Origin: Zhongshania aliphaticivorans
Lineage (GTDB): Bacteria; Pseudomonadota; Gammaproteobacteria; Pseudomonadales; Spongiibacteraceae
Direction of reading: 5' to 3'
Length of the DNA: 64,000 nt
NCBI RefSeq assembly: GCF_902705875.1
Contig: NZ_CACSIK010000001.1
Coordinates: 2,187,632-2,251,631 of the forward strand
How positions within the stretch are numbered: position 1 is the first letter of the stretch; each line of letters opens with the position of its first letter. This document shows, in pieces, positions 722 through 43,483 of this stretch. The position numbers and the translations under genes were made by a program. The notes beneath the pieces are model-generated. The model was given only the letters and a program-made list of their open reading frames with translations. It had not been told where the DNA came from and searched no databases.

Positions 722-821
722 CTTCAGACAGTACCGGACTGATGCCAAAGGCTCAATTCACACTTTAGCGGTCATACGAAGCCTGTCAATTTGAAAGGAC
801 TATTTCAGGAAAGCAGCCATT

Positions 822-890
822 CGATAACGCCGTGCTCTGGGGCAAACCGGAGCACAGCGTAGGTTTGTCCCTAGCAGCACTTTGTTAGGC
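822..890 (-). repeat. attC recombination site of cassette A
   Basis: Read on the minus strand, the site runs from inverse core GCCTAAC (884-890) to core GTTATCG (822-828) around an imperfect palindrome. GTGCTCTGGGGCAAACC pairs with GGTTTGTCCCTAGCAGCAC, with extra bases on one arm, as in integron attC sites. The stop codon of the DUF4145 gene (885-887) lies inside the inverse core. The inverse core is the exact complement of this cassette's own left boundary GTTAGGC at 1613-1619. Confidence 0.8.
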
Positions 891-1592
891 GCTGTCACCA
901 GGCTCTCTCCTTGCTTGTCTTCTTAATTTTGCCATCTCTAAACGGCGAGGTTCTGTATAAAGCCTTTCTAATAGCATGTAGGTAAAATCAAGAATATCTG
1001 CTGCATCTTCTTCGGAAAGATTGCCAGCGTGAGCCCCATCATTACCATCCTCTTTTATACATGTAGATAATTCTTGCAGAGCTGTAGGTAAAATATTTTT
1101 TTCAAACAACCACTCAAGCCTTAAGCCCAAGCTACGTCGAATTCTGTTATTTAAGCCATTCTCATTTTCTTCAGGTAACATTGAGTTTGTTGCTAGGTCT
1201 ATGCAGAGTCTAAACATAGTTGCACCGGCATTATGACAACCAATAGCCATACAAGCTGCACCTTCGACATAGATAGAGTTAATGTCTTCCGGTAAATGTT
1301 CAGGTGGTTGTTCTGCAATCTCATCCTTAAGTGAAATATGTCCTTTAACTATTGCCACCTGATTTACAGAAAAATCCATTTCCGGCAAAGATTTTTTACG
1401 CAAGTATTCTCTATCGTCGTAACTTTTTTGCTGCAAAACGAAAATAGTTGATTTGAAACAATTTCTGCAAATGCAGAATGTCTCCCAATTTTGTTGCCAA
1501 CCATGATACGCAACAGTCGGTAATGCTTGCACCAAATCAAATGTCATCTGTTGTGACTTACACCTTGGGCAATTTGCAACTAACTCAGACAT
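885..1592 (-). CDS. Zinc-ribbon plus DUF4145 protein (integron cassette A)
   Basis: This 235-residue protein has an N-terminal zinc-ribbon-like segment, with CxxC pairs at residues 8/11 and 42/45. A C-terminal DUF4145 domain follows (about 110-225), including the IKEDGNDGAHAGNLSEED signature. DUF4145 is often found alone or attached to restriction and other nucleic-acid enzymes; its biochemical role is unknown. The start at 1592 is supported by AAGGAG about ten bases upstream. The gene fills one integron-type cassette (828-1618), opens about 26 bases after the cassette boundary and stops inside attC. Expression would depend on a promoter further upstream in the array. A stress or defence role is speculation. 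Confidence 0.85.
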   Translation of the reverse strand: MSELVANCPRCKSQQMTFDLVQALPTVAYHGWQQNWETFCICRNCFKSTIFVLQQKSYDDREYLRKKSLPEMDFSVNQVAIVKGHISLKDEIAEQPPEHLPEDINSIYVEGAACMAIGCHNAGATMFRLCIDLATNSMLPEENENGLNNRIRRSLGLRLEWLFEKNILPTALQELSTCIKEDGNDGAHAGNLSEEDAADILDFTYMLLERLYTEPRRLEMAKLRRQARREPGDSA

Positions 1593-1612
1593 TTATTCGA
1601 TCTCCTTTCTTC

Positions 1613-1693
1613 GCCTAACGCCGCGCACACAGGTAAGCCACGCAGTGGCGAGTCCTGAACGCGAAGCGTGCGTAGTGCTGCGCCTTGTTATAT
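1613..1693 (-). repeat. attC recombination site of cassette B
   Basis: On the minus strand it runs from ATATAAC (1687-1693) to GTTAGGC (1613-1619). The inner part can form an imperfect stem including CACGCAGTGGCG and TGAACGCGAAGCGTGCGTAG segments. The stop codon of the cassette B gene (1688-1690) is within the inverse core. ATATAAC is the exact complement of this cassette's left boundary GTTATAT at 2072-2078, which is the hallmark of a cassette excised and inserted as a circle. Confidence 0.78.
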
Positions 1694-2059
1694 TTTTTTA
1701 TCGACAACGCCGACACCATAACTTAGTTGTTGAGGTTTGGTGGCAGACTCAATAAACCCACTAACCTTCATTTTCTGGTCGGGTTTCAAATCGAATTCTC
1801 GACGTTCCGTAGCAATCACTCTCTGAGAACTCATCTTGGCTGCTCCTGGAATGCCAAAGGCGTTAATCCTCACATACGCCAATGTTGGTTTCCTACTCCA
1901 ATTTGTAACTTCGAGCTCATACGAGCACCCATTGTGAAAACAAGTGTAAGTCCAGTCATTCGATGAGACTTCAGCCTTAGTATACGAATAGAAACAAACA
2001 ACCCCCGCTACAGCGGCTACCAGGACGAACAATGCTATTTTGATATTTCTATTAGTCAT
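1688..2059 (-). CDS. Small membrane-anchored protein of unknown function (cassette B)
   Basis: The protein of about 123 residues begins MTNRNIKIALF at 2059. The frame stays open to 2155, but that extension only reads through the attC of the preceding cassette, so I reject the longer start. Residues about 6-25 form one hydrophobic segment, followed by an exported domain with two cysteines in a TCFHNGCSYE context that could form a disulfide. I know no family for it. It has no other gene partner inside its cassette (1619-2077). A role at the cell surface is only inferred from the topology. Confidence 0.75.
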   Translation of the reverse strand: MTNRNIKIALFVLVAAVAGVVCFYSYTKAEVSSNDWTYTCFHNGCSYELEVTNWSRKPTLAYVRINAFGIPGAAKMSSQRVIATERREFDLKPDQKMKVSGFIESATKPQQLSYGVGVVDKKI

Positions 2060-2071
2060 CACGCTCTGAAA

Positions 2072-2139
2072 ATATAACACCAAGCTAAATGGACCAAAAG
2101 CCACAGGCTTTTGTGGTCCATTTGAGCGTTTTGTTAAGC
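2072..2139 (-). repeat. attC recombination site of cassette C
   Basis: On the minus strand, inverse core GCTTAAC (2133-2139) and core GTTATAT (2072-2078) flank a strong palindrome. AAATGGACCAAAAGCC pairs with GGCTTTTGTGGTCCATTT, with one extra base on one arm. The hydrolase stop codon (2134-2136) lies in the inverse core. GCTTAAC exactly complements this cassette's left boundary GTTAAGC at 2989-2995. Confidence 0.85.
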
Positions 2140-2967
2140 ATTGGGATTGGCACAATGCTTGTTTATAAATGCTAATGTATCATCAAACCATATGTGTACT
2201 CCGGCCCATGGCAAGCTGTGACCTTCTTTAGCAGAAGAGCCAAACGGAGGATAAATTTTCACCTCAGCTATTTTTCCATGTTTCTTCATTTGTGCCGAAA
2301 GCACCTTAGTAGGTGCTAGGTTGTAGTCATTCTCGGCCTGAAAGAAAAATATAGGACTATTAGCATTAGCTACTGCCTGTTTCATTACATTCTGTAGACC
2401 TTCAGAATCCTCCCAGCTTTGGGCGGCACCTGTTGCATTGACACCTGCACAGTAAGTTGCTTTCTCAACCCCCAGAACAACCTGAATACCTCCAAAGGAA
2501 TTCCCTGCTGTGGCGATTCGGCCTGCATCTACAAAACTCTGCTTTTTTAACCACTCAAGAGCAGCCATTTGATCGGATAAGTGATCTGTTTGATGAAGCT
2601 CTACTAATTTCTTGGCCGCTTTGCCCCACCCGGTCCATCGTGCAGAGTTAATTTCATCGATTATATATGGGCCTTGATCCTCACTAAGACCTTGGCCCCT
2701 ACGGTATGGCATAAAAAAGCCCCAGCCATTTTTGGCAAACTCTGGGCCTATAGCAGCACTGGCAATGCTATTTTTCATTTTGGGTGCACTGCCATGGTTG
2801 TAGAGTACGACAGGAAATGGGCCTTTTCCTTCTGGGAGAAATAACTCCCCGCCCAAGGTTAGTTTACCACTTGGAAATTTAACGACTTGAGGGTTATCTG
2901 TATCTGTAACAGCAAAAGAAGACATGCTGACAAAGCAAAGAAGGTAGATAGCTATTATTTTTCTCAT
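2134..2967 (-). CDS. Secreted alpha/beta hydrolase, dienelactone hydrolase type (cassette C)
   Basis: This is a 277-residue serine hydrolase with an N-terminal signal peptide (residues 1-19, cleaved near SSFAV-TD), so it probably acts in the periplasm. The oxyanion-region NHGS is at 57-60. The nucleophile elbow GNSFGG places Ser157, and likely acid and base are Asp214 (AENDYN) and His250 (EGHS). The fold resembles dienelactone hydrolase/prolyl oligopeptidase-like esterases. The substrate cannot be inferred. The start lies 27 bases inside the cassette boundary and the stop is in the attC, so the gene is a complete cassette passenger with little untranslated sequence. Confidence 0.88.
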   Translation of the reverse strand: MRKIIAIYLLCFVSMSSFAVTDTDNPQVVKFPSGKLTLGGELFLPEGKGPFPVVLYNHGSAPKMKNSIASAAIGPEFAKNGWGFFMPYRRGQGLSEDQGPYIIDEINSARWTGWGKAAKKLVELHQTDHLSDQMAALEWLKKQSFVDAGRIATAGNSFGGIQVVLGVEKATYCAGVNATGAAQSWEDSEGLQNVMKQAVANANSPIFFFQAENDYNLAPTKVLSAQMKKHGKIAEVKIYPPFGSSAKEGHSLPWAGVHIWFDDTLAFINKHCANPNA

Positions 2968-2988
2968 TTATATATCCGTATTTTGAAT

Positions 2989-2995
2989 GCTTAAC
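2989..2995 (-). other. Cassette boundary (integron core site)
   Basis: On the minus strand the seven bases read GTTAAGC, matching the GTTRRRY core. They mark the 5' end of cassette C. No clear attC palindrome and no integrase gene lie on the far side, so this is either a decayed attC/attI or the edge of an orphan array. Confidence 0.65.
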
Positions 2996-3683
2996 CGTTT
3001 TATTATGAAGACTGGGGCCTTATATCACTTTGGCTCCCTATCTCCGGAGCCGGATTCTGAATGGCGTCAAAAACCATAGCAATATCATTCACTTGATTGT
3101 ATTTAGTTGAATTAGCTATCGATGTTAGCAATACTCGCTCCCTCTATTTTTTCTGAAATCCCTTCTCCTGATCATAAACCCATATCTTAAAGAATCAACA
3201 ACTTAGACTACGATCTACGGAATTAGTGAGCCCGCTTCTACTGAACACACTATTAGTAAGCGTGAATGAGATTTAGCTCCGCCGGAGAATCGGTCGCCGT
3301 GAATGTCCGCTTTGGTGACTGGCAGTTCGGCTGCATCTTCAGAAATGATGACCGCTTTTGGCACGAAGCAGCAAGTTAATTCCTCTCATAAAAAACACAC
3401 TAGAGGCTACCTTAACCAGCAACATTCCCTCAACAACTCCGTTATTAACACAACTTTTCTTGTATTTAAGAATCACTCTTACTACTATTTGCATCTTTGA
3501 AAATTGCTTAATGCTCACTATATTAGCCACTGATTATCATGCTGCCGCATCTTCTCATTCACACAGGGCAAGCTTGGCAGTCAGCTATCACCGATTTACG
3601 GCATCTAGAACATCGCCAAAGCGCAGTGATGGTGAGTTTATTTTACTGCATCACCACGCTAACTAACTTTTGGACACCTCCGC
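2996..3683. other. Long non-coding stretch beside the cassette array
   Basis: No convincing gene is visible in these 688 bases; the short open frames are low-complexity and overlap each other on both strands. A GGCTCC/GGAGCC hairpin lies at 3032-3051. Around 3303-3370 are two related segments, TGTCCGCTTTGG and ATGACCGCTTTTGGCACGAA. The second partly resembles ATGACCGCTAAAG on the minus strand at about 759-771, on the other side of the array. The stretch may be degraded cassette DNA. Confidence 0.5.
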
Positions 3684-4226
3684 ATGATAAATGGGCTTTT
3701 AGGCGTCATTACCGCTGCAGCCAGTATCACTTGCCTTTATCTATCATGGCAAAACCGCTTCCCGCGCCACACCTGGCTTATGCCTACAGGCTGGCTCGCG
3801 GCACTGGTCAGCACCCTTTTCTTAATCAGCGCCAATGGTGCTGAATTCGGCATTGCCTACGCCTGTTTATTCATTCCCTTATTTGCATGGTTTGCCGTAC
3901 TTTTAAATTTGGAAATAAAGCGTAAACACCAACGCATTAATGAATCAGTTGCTATTGTCGTTCCTGCAACCAGAACTGTTTTACGTCATATCGCACTGTT
4001 TTTTATTACCGTACCTTTAAGTGGTATCGCCACAGCTTATGCCAGTGTTGCGTTCGTCATGTTACTGCCATTATCCGTGGTCAACGCAGTTGTCCTTGTG
4101 GTGCTCATTGCGCCAATAAGCTGGGGCGTAGCCGCATGGTGGGCCTGTGCAGATCCCAAGCGGTTCAGACCAATCATTTGGATAAGCACTGTCGGCCTAC
4201 TTGGTGCGGCATTGGTTTATAGCTAA
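3684..4226 (+). CDS. Polytopic membrane protein upstream of PepSY gene
   Basis: This 180-residue, highly hydrophobic protein has about five or six predicted helices in two halves (about 1-80 and 95-180), separated by a basic loop EIKRKHQRIN. The N-terminal half resembles the small DUF3325-like membrane proteins that accompany PepSY proteins in iron-uptake loci, but I cannot confirm the family. It lies 55 bases upstream of the PepSY gene in the same orientation, so the two probably form an operon. The ATG at 3684 is the first start after an in-frame stop, although no clear ribosome site precedes it. The function is inferred only from context. Confidence 0.65.
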   Translation: MINGLLGVITAAASITCLYLSWQNRFPRHTWLMPTGWLAALVSTLFLISANGAEFGIAYACLFIPLFAWFAVLLNLEIKRKHQRINESVAIVVPATRTVLRHIALFFITVPLSGIATAYASVAFVMLLPLSVVNAVVLVVLIAPISWGVAAWWACADPKRFRPIIWISTVGLLGAALVYS

Positions 4227-4281: not shown

Positions 4282-5730
4282 ATGAAACAGCTACTCTCAC
4301 CATCACTTGTCAAAAACTCACTGTCCAGCCACTCTTGGTTGGGGCTGATGGTTGGCGCACTGATGTACCTGGTTTGTATATCAGGAACTTTGGCTGTTTT
4401 CTTTCAAGAATTTGAACGCTGGGAGCAACCCGCCGCTGAAGAGTTTTTAACAATTAGCGGCGATGCTCTACAAGAAAGTTACACCAAGGTGCTGGCGCAA
4501 AGTGACGACACCAAAGACATAATGATCGCACTACCCCGTGACGACATGCCAAGGGCCTCTATCTCTAATGACAAAGAGGGCTGGTTTTTAAACCAAGATG
4601 GCTCTCTGGGAGAGGCCGTTAATCATCCGTGGACTCACTTACTCACTGATCTCCATATTTTTCTGCACCTGCCAGAAAATATCGGCGTATTAATTGTCAG
4701 TATATTGGGCGCATTATTGTGCGGATTGATTATTTCTGGCTTTTTCGCGCACCCGCGGATATTTCGAGACGCCTTCACTCTGCGTTTAAAAGGCTCTAAA
4801 CATTTAGAGCAAGCAGACATTCACAACCGTTTAAGTGTCTGGGGCGCTCCTTTCCACTTAATGATCGCCATAACAGGTGCTTACTTTGGCCTTGCATTGG
4901 TGCTCAGCCTGATTGTTGCCCCAGCATTTTTTGAAGGTGAAATGGCGATAATTGTCCCCACCCTTTTTGGCTTTGATCCGGTATTAGAGCAAGAATTACA
5001 CCTCGCCAATATTAGTCACGTCCTCGCGCAATTACCAAGCATTGCACCAGGCACCACGCCTTTGTATCTCAAAGTTGAAAACGCCAACACCGCCCAGCAA
5101 TTCATTACCGTGGCAGTCCAACACCACGATAGGCTGATTTATGCTGAGCAATATCAATTTGACGGTATGGGTAACTACCTTGATAAAGTCGGTTTTTCTG
5201 ACGGTGAAGCCGGTCGCCAAGCAATTATTTCATTATACCGACTACACTTTGGCCACTATGGCGGTTTTTTTGTCAAAGTCTTGTACGGCATTTTCGGCTT
5301 GGCACTCACGGTTGTTTCTGTCAGCGGGATTAATGTCTGGTTTGCCCGCCGCAAACACCGCGACGCCCTTAATAAACTGTGGTTAGGCTTGGTTTGGGGT
5401 GTACCGCTAGCATTTAGCATCACGGCCGTATGCCAGTTAATTTTTCAATATAGCTCCATTGGCTTATTTTGGCTGTGCATCGTTGCCTGTTCAGCAACAG
5501 CTCAAACCCTCAATAATGATGTGCTATCTAAAGCCTTATTATTGAAGCTAAATGCCGCTGTGCTCATTGGCCTCGTTATCACTTATACCCTGCGGCATGG
5601 CGATCACGCTCTGCAGACAGTTCCTCTGAGTATTAATGTCAGCCTCGTTATCACTGCTGTTGTGCTCTATCTAATGGCATCACCAAAAGCAAAGAGCACA
5701 TTCAACAGCGAGAGTGTTCCTAAGCCCTGA
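4282..5730 (+). CDS. PepSY-associated TM (PiuB-type) membrane protein
   Basis: This 482-residue inner-membrane protein belongs to the PepSY_TM/PiuB group, which is commonly linked to siderophore receptors and is thought to reduce ferric siderophores at the membrane. The first helix is near residues 18-45 (SWLGLMVGALMYLVCISGT). A periplasmic part follows, then helices near 135-160, 195-220 and 325-350, and four more hydrophobic segments at the C-terminus. The SGTLAVF and VSGINVW motifs are typical. It ends 11 bases inside the convergent DUF2061 gene. Iron control is suggested by the family; the only Fur-like site seen nearby is at 6015-6034, on the far side of the convergent gene. Confidence 0.8.
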   Translation: MKQLLSPSLVKNSLSSHSWLGLMVGALMYLVCISGTLAVFFQEFERWEQPAAEEFLTISGDALQESYTKVLAQSDDTKDIMIALPRDDMPRASISNDKEGWFLNQDGSLGEAVNHPWTHLLTDLHIFLHLPENIGVLIVSILGALLCGLIISGFFAHPRIFRDAFTLRLKGSKHLEQADIHNRLSVWGAPFHLMIAITGAYFGLALVLSLIVAPAFFEGEMAIIVPTLFGFDPVLEQELHLANISHVLAQLPSIAPGTTPLYLKVENANTAQQFITVAVQHHDRLIYAEQYQFDGMGNYLDKVGFSDGEAGRQAIISLYRLHFGHYGGFFVKVLYGIFGLALTVVSVSGINVWFARRKHRDALNKLWLGLVWGVPLAFSITAVCQLIFQYSSIGLFWLCIVACSATAQTLNNDVLSKALLLKLNAAVLIGLVITYTLRHGDHALQTVPLSINVSLVITAVVLYLMASPKAKSTFNSESVPKP

Positions 5731-43177: not shown

Positions 43178-43385
43178 GGTTCTCTCAAAACAATAGAACG
43201 AAGGGGCCAATGTATAAGTAGGTCATTAAATCTGTGGCAAGAAAGTAGCTGCAGATAACCGACATTCACAATATGTAAATGAGAGTTAGAGCGCGGTAGC
43301 GACGCCGACAGATGCAATAAAAACACTTAATCAAAGGCTCCCGAAGAGAGACCCGGTGCGCGCTAGAAAAGGATTGTGAACACAC

Positions 43386-43483
43386 CTATTCCTACGCCGG
43401 TATTAACCGGATCAGGTTCAAGGGTTTGCAGTGTGATTATCATTCACCGCATCTCAGGCCACAGCCACCCCTTAGGATTTCGG
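43386..43483 (-). ncRNA. TPP riboswitch (THI element)
   Basis: Read on the minus strand, the leader contains the classic conserved blocks: GGGGTGGCTGTGGCCTGAGA, then CCCTTGAACCTGATCCGGTT, then AATACCGGCGTAGGAA. These form the two parallel arms of the thiamine-pyrophosphate aptamer. It lies about 210 bases before the receptor ATG at 43177. When TPP is abundant the downstream uptake genes should be turned off. I cannot say whether control is transcriptional or translational, as no clear terminator T tract is seen. The remainder of 43178-43657 appears non-coding. Confidence 0.95.

Follow-up and report, generated by a model that had tools for sequence, protein, structure and literature searches.

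How is a cassette array filled that has no integrase of its own, and from what does it descend? The question is raised by a stretch of 64,000 nucleotides from Zhongshania aliphaticivorans (contig NZ_CACSIK010000001.1, positions 2,187,632–2,251,631; hereafter the window, numbered from its first letter), where three integron cassettes lie on the minus strand (828–2994), each ending in a cassette attachment site (attC). An initial annotation, made from the letters alone, had described an orphan array, that is, a cluster of attC sites lacking an integrase (CALIN). By definition the name fits, since at least two clustered attC sites are required and three are present (822–2139) with no integrase nearby (~320 kb), but it omits the head of the array, an integron attachment site (attI) plus leader nearly the same in sequence as those next to the resident integron integrase (IntI). 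From comparison of these sequences we consider it likely that the window array belongs to a distributed integron, in which one integrase would serve many attI-headed arrays in trans. The initial observation is confirmed, neither of the outcomes that its author named as refuting it having been obtained, and the finding is larger than the orphan CALIN first noted.

The anatomy of the array is that of inserted cassettes. As had been noted, each cassette opens with seven nucleotides whose reverse complement is exactly the inverse core of that cassette (GTTAAGC/GCTTAAC, GTTATAT/ATATAAC and GTTAGGC/GCCTAAC), and in all three a single open reading frame (ORF) runs into an attC-like palindrome. The attC covariance model R2 matched all three cassette ends and gave exactly these three matches (822–2139) in a scan of the 64-kb window. 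R2 comprises 17 matches from outside the window, one site being counted twice through overlapping stretches. It is not wholly independent, its alignment having been guided by model R1, which was trained on 19 hand-collected sites, the three in the window among them. With filters off, R1 missed attC sites above ~62 nt, and no attC-type match was found in the window with Rfam at the gathering threshold. Compared with shuffled sequences, folding clearly supports attC1 and moderately supports attC3, whereas attC2 folds as a single strand no better than its shuffles (Table 1). The last core of attC3, GTTATCG, departs from the usual GTTRRRY consensus.

On the other side of the array, the start site qualifies as an attI by its sequence identity with the IntI-adjacent attI (98% over 59 bp), and window positions 745–831 match the end of the last attC plus tail of the IntI array (96.6% over 87 bp). 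Because leader and tail are near-identical to those of the complete integron, the window array is built on the same platform, without intI. No integrase gene adjoins the window attI, and none of the ten integrase matches listed genome-wide lies in the window, in agreement with the first description; the array is therefore not a complete integron, but rather an integrase-less attI platform that consists of a leader with a candidate promoter, attI, three cassettes and a tail. The stretch 2996–3683, previously thought to be non-coding, is in part this platform. Compared with an orphan copy at C1:109514 (contig C1 of the same genome), it is homologous as far as 372 bp away from the core, with 74.7% identity over 379 alignment columns. 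Within the leader, the −10-like TATGAT is kept in 9 of the 11 leaders of the genome, and a promoter scan returned seven promoter-like sites versus 5.5 ± 2.5 in shuffles, a difference that is not significant alone. The tail was considered as a general platform end and rejected, as it occurs at five places in this genome but is missing from the remaining 51 of 53 platforms.

Insertion at an attG site would have an array begin at neither attI nor attC. Such sites are reportedly the subject of Loot et al. 2024. What heads the window array is a copy of the attI beside IntI and not an unrelated site, and we give next to no credence to an origin in which cassettes were inserted off target, at an attG-like site that is no attI, although this is named as one source of CALIN (PMC8618304; attG in PMC12444791). 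For the array itself, off-target insertion is refuted by the identity of its attI; it may account for the first arrival of the platform.

The Z. aliphaticivorans genome (G000; 3.98 Mb, 7 contigs) contains one complete IntI. A search with the TIGR02249 profile returned a single match over the cut-off of 265 (C1:1869418–1870359, 418 bits), ~320 kb from the window array. The protein encoded by this gene aligns with VchIntIA 2A3V over residues 14–326 (292 bits); a shortened integrase at C1:997165 reaches 195.8 bits, below the cut-off. The leader recurs at ten further places at E < 0.01, three of them decayed, and all 11 copies end at G^TTA, behind which the sequences or cassettes differ. A 66-bp attI query finds eight clear copies, seven followed by attC sites and one adjoining IntI. 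In a whole-genome attC search, in which 150 of 387 candidates were scored, all 21 listed sites share their stretch with a leader, a tail, an integrase or an integrase remnant; window attC1, the weakest by R2, is missing from this list. At the loci of the three decayed leaders, no attC was found.

Several of the orphan copies have in common a stretch left of the leader that is missing from the IntI-adjacent copy and in some cases reaches ~500 bp from the core. This pattern fits one intI-less unit that multiplied, and stands against the usual view of CALIN, by which a complete integron at the window locus would have lost its own intI in place. In-place loss has in its favour that the leader and tail flanking the array equal those of the complete integron and shortened integrases are present both in this genome and in relatives, yet the left part common to the orphan copies has no match in the 3′ flank of intI, and 48 of the 53 attI copies found in the genus have no integrase match within 2 kb (matches weaker than 1e-20 being missed), and we regard this already disfavoured explanation as highly improbable. 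The intI 3′ flank was rejected as a source of the shared left part. Of 12 comparisons, 11 had at least one of 200 shuffles reaching the observed score; that with C1:109514 (z 3.8), in which no shuffle did so, stands alone. By eye, the flanks of four copies of this genome are unrelated up to ~500 bp from the core, where the copies seem to begin with TTGTYGATTYAYC, and this start of orphan platforms could be the end of the multiplied unit.

The platform is not confined to one strain. We compared 18 Zhongshania genomes, G000 included, with 39 further genomes outside the genus. A 259-bp leader query matches 13 of these 57 genomes, all within the genus (13/18 versus 0/39), and the 66-bp attI query yields 53 copies in 14 of the 18; the TIGR02249 cut-off is exceeded in 14 of 18, the weaker matches including other tyrosine recombinases. 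Within 4 kb downstream, 38 of the 53 attI copies are followed by an attC on the same strand (R2 ≥ 20 bits), and near the 53 copies 80 attC sites lie on the same strand versus 2 on the opposite one. An integrase match lies within 2 kb of only five copies, three of the matches being full length and the other two covering 273 and 113 positions; the search used 1e-20, so that short fragments could escape it. The 52-bp block next to the core is best preserved, with a mean identity of 0.83 to the IntI-adjacent copy versus 0.59–0.67 in the other four blocks (49 copies). Three of the 53 copies lack a core by the pattern used. At two junctions, one IntI-adjacent (G001:C7:203143) and one orphan (G005:C38:15426), the GTT core is missing and the following sequence is the same. 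On G009:C5, two attI copies point in the same direction ~4.7 kb apart (378–417 and 5118–5170; L210), the second ~100 bp behind an attC and hence inside or behind an array.

Dispersed attI copies are not confined to this attI type or to this genus. The attI region of G010, tested on three of the four genus genomes without a hit (G013 was left out), has one further copy in G010 itself (88%), three in G007 and one in G012, each of the five followed by attC sites on the same strand. On the complete chromosome of Microbulbifer sp. YPW16, the IntI-adjacent attI end recurs at four more places, all with attC sites downstream on the same strand. Many draft assemblies of Microbulbifer have a contig end only a few kb from the integrase, which would be expected if assembly breaks at repeated platforms or arrays.

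Cassettes at orphan platforms differ between otherwise matching sites. G003:C89 and G017:C11 are 95.6% identical over 1571 bp up to the attI, and past the arrays they again agree at 95.7% over 1491 bp. The arrays between these conserved flanks (5.4 and 2.7 kb) show no match to each other; a matching site on G005:C19 has mostly different content. Similarly, G003:C113 and G017:C1:678848 share 97.4% identity upstream and 92.6–98.2% downstream, where homology resumes 1.1 and 3.7 kb from the attI. Two platforms from different species, G005:C63 and G008:C1:1897883, are collinear (96.1% over 6.2 kb) bar one cassette: the extra 682-bp cassette plus attC sits exactly between the attI and the rest. In YPW16, the IntI array has two cassettes in common with an orphan array ~1 Mb away: its cassette 1 (607 bp, 100%) is cassette 2 there, and its cassette 3 (473 bp, 99.8%) is cassette 1, so that the same cassettes occur in both arrays of one chromosome, with boundaries at the cores and in swapped order.

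The core pairing seen in the window extends to these arrays. Between the core of the first cassette and the attC of that cassette, pairing is exact at 25 of 34 orphan platforms and in 27 of 38 related attI-headed arrays overall, as against 62 of 1406 mismatched pairs drawn from all 38, which upholds the earlier judgement that such pairing is hard to obtain by chance. Eleven of the 38 first cassettes were counted as unpaired, two of them lacking a core. Taken together, these sequences indicate that site-specific cassette movement has happened at attI sites without an adjoining integrase, for which action in trans is the simplest cause. Exchange of whole arrays or platforms between strains by homologous recombination in the flanks would require no integrase at orphan sites; it is permitted by the long flanking homology, is in line with the collinearity of some arrays over kilobases between species, and is possible for the two G003/G017 pairs. 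It predicts neither a single-cassette difference located exactly at the attI nor two core-to-core cassettes in swapped order, and thus poorly explains the 682-bp cassette and the YPW16 arrays; as a general account we find it rather improbable.

Several observations weigh against the proposal of an integrase acting in trans. By the R2 test, 15 of the 53 attI copies are without a downstream attC, some of them near contig ends; 9 of 36 core-bearing first cassettes are not exactly paired; and no near-identical cassette was found between platforms of the Z. aliphaticivorans genome itself. The most serious concern is the match between platform and enzyme. Among 15 full-length integrase genes that exceed the cut-off, the flank on the cassette side carries the window type of attI in four cases (G000, G001, G005 and G015, the G005 gene having an in-frame TGA), another type with a GAGGCC..GGCCTC palindrome in four (G009, G010, G011 and G014) and neither type in six (G003, G004, G006, G007 and two in G016), one flank being too short to judge (G012). 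Furthermore, G002, G008 and G017 hold attI copies but no integrase over the cut-off, and G003 and G017 show array turnover yet no visibly matching integrase. In most relatives the orphan attI sites are thus not visibly matched by a complete resident integrase, a mismatch that lowers our confidence in the trans reading. Either platforms outlive their integrases, or an integrase of another type can use them. The two attI types carry different motifs, GGCC-AAAGTGATATAW-GGCC ~25–30 bp before the core in the one and GAGGCC..GGCCTC nearer the core in the other (G007, G009, G010, G011 and G014), which are possible lineage-specific recognition sites.

Some platforms may therefore be stranded, because the complete IntI of several relatives has a different attI or none that is recognisable, and the turnover events involving G003, G008 and G017 may be old, given that no visibly matching complete integrase is present there today. 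A more general form of this explanation, in which the attI arrays were spread and filled under a matching integrase but are now inert, would make the window array a relic yet to decay. It accounts for the relatives that hold attI copies without a matching complete IntI and for the three decayed leaders among the 11 of the Z. aliphaticivorans genome, at which no attC was found. Against it, the IntI of this genome is complete and its attI matches the window copy, attI is better kept than the rest of the leader, and the near-identical cassettes in two Microbulbifer arrays indicate recent movement there. We consider this alternative unlikely, though less so than the others.

We therefore favour a distributed integron, with the following mechanism. 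The product of the one IntI gene would act in trans on several dispersed attI sites, binding the orphan copies; cassettes would be excised via their folded attC sites and the circular cassettes inserted at G^TT, and at each platform expression of the first cassettes would start from the local leader with its putative promoter. We infer that the integrase is the cause of cassette movement at the orphan sites, that the leader acts as a promoter and that this strain still has a functioning system. More tentatively, and with less expectation of being right than wrong, we suggest that the attI platform itself multiplies, leader and attI being copied to new places, perhaps as an attI-ended cassette at an attG-like site. 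The integron would then be a network of satellite arrays under one integrase, and many CALIN elsewhere would be satellites, not debris.

Table 1. Features of the window array and its platform (window positions; folding z given for plus/minus strand).
Feature	Position	Strand	Description
Tail past last attC	745–827	−	Common to IntI-adjacent array and three other places in the genome
attC3	822–890	−	R2 38.7 bits; folding z −2.5/−2.1
Cassette 3	828–1618	−	Gene 885–1592, 235-aa DUF4145 protein (PF13643, 31.1 bits, cut-off 23.1)
attC2	1613–1693	−	R2 39.6 bits; folding z −1.0/−1.3
Cassette 2	1619–2077	−	Gene 1688–2059, 123-aa protein without assigned function, hydrophobic N-terminus
attC1	2072–2139	−	R2 29.6 bits; folding z −6.6/−5.4
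Cassette 1	2078–2994	−	Gene 2134–2967, 277-aa alpha/beta hydrolase (PF00326/PF01738)
attI	2989–3046	−	Core G^TTAAGC (2995–2989) plus ~52 bp upstream; most conserved part of platform
Leader	2992–3247	−	95.3% identity (blastn; L009:7056-7311) with the 256-bp interval from complete IntI to the first cassette of its array
Candidate cassette promoter	3171–3198	−	TTGATT-16-TATGAT, within leader; 9 of 12 matches
Further upstream part of platform	3248–3364	−	Common to orphan copy C1:109514; not in IntI-adjacent copy

The three cassettes differ in how widely their proteins are distributed. The cassette 1 protein, which by eye has a possible N-terminal signal peptide, has 2244 homologs, the closest non-self one at 81%, and the cassette 3 protein has 1928, among the best 120 of which one at 89% is labelled Idiomarina sp. 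A28L. The cassette 2 protein is almost unique, with one non-self homolog (76%). A role of cassette 3 as a defence gene was dismissed, the PADLOC match to PD-T7-4 (33.8 bits, window 885–1592) being too weak. The block of three genes is not conserved in relatives: only cassette 2 was found, in one of the 17 other genus genomes (G008, another species; 82%), where the core and the inverse core bound the homologous stretch. This homolog (C5:573008–573400; L267 1490–1900) is preceded by an attC-like stretch, with a core of GCT, not GTT. In G016 and G017, the homologs of the genes that flank the window platform, a small ORF (542–721) and a membrane gene (3684–4226), have between them a cupin gene (Pfam 34.9 bits in G016), and the platform is not seen at this place. 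Inspection of the G016 and G017 junctions by eye revealed neither a clean empty site nor a target duplication, the junctions not being clean.

Further integron-like stretches are present on contig C1. At 997k–1009k (L010 7042–12857, L045), a shortened integrase (243-aa open frame) is accompanied by at least five attC sites, behind which lie a tail, a catalase-peroxidase gene (by eye) and more attC sites. A short integrase remnant with a stop codon lies near two attC sites at 878k–883k (L047 8337–8595, 9944–12772), and three attC sites with a decayed tail are found at 51.9k–55.5k (L046 9878–13495), where the leader search found no attI leader. Elsewhere in the window, a thiamine pyrophosphate (TPP) riboswitch is located on the minus strand at 43372–43482 (71.5 bits).

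In the genus examined, 48 of 53 attI copies lie apart from a detected integrase and most copies head cassette arrays. If IntI does act in trans, one enzyme would feed several platforms, more first positions would be expressed in parallel, and a cassette could be stored or tried at several loci; clusters that resemble leftovers may be outposts of a shared gene-capture system. The nature of CALIN is directly testable in this respect, by looking for repeated attI sites ahead of the clusters. Since attI detection by IntegronFinder is confined to class 1 (PMC9024848), annotation based on it would miss such platforms. Within the accessible text of the literature on multiple or dispersed attI sites and on Zhongshania or Microbulbifer integrons, we found no description of repeated attI sites heading separate arrays; subscription journals lay mostly outside this scope, and absence is unproven.

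Among known systems, the delta-attI (attI-ended) cassettes of class 1 and 2 integrons show that misplaced attI pieces within cassettes stay reactive (PMC12901181), and they offer a possible route for the spread of attI. They are single and lie within an integron array, whereas here leader and attI head separate, distant arrays. Miniature inverted-repeat transposable elements (MITEs) and similar non-autonomous repeats resemble the platform in being short and present in many copies, without protein genes and with their enzyme encoded elsewhere; in contrast to these, the present unit serves as a cassette insertion site. Like the window array, CALIN have several attC sites or cassettes without a nearby integrase and can be mobilised in trans (PMC12444791, PMC11389934). 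Their origin has been attributed to off-target insertion, intI loss and rearrangement (PMC8618304), integrase loss or translocation being named elsewhere too (PMC11389934). The arrays described here differ in being headed by repeated copies of the attI and leader of the resident integron. The CALIN of Xanthomonas are comparable integrase-less arrays at conserved secondary loci within a genus, but are set apart by their description, the accessible text mentioning no attI copies at those loci (PMC12444791). With sedentary chromosomal integrons, of which the Z. aliphaticivorans genome has a complete one, the platforms share attI and attC cassettes, and may share a cassette promoter. Integrons typically have one attI, close to the integrase (PMC9024848), whereas this genome has eight clear attI copies for one complete IntI.

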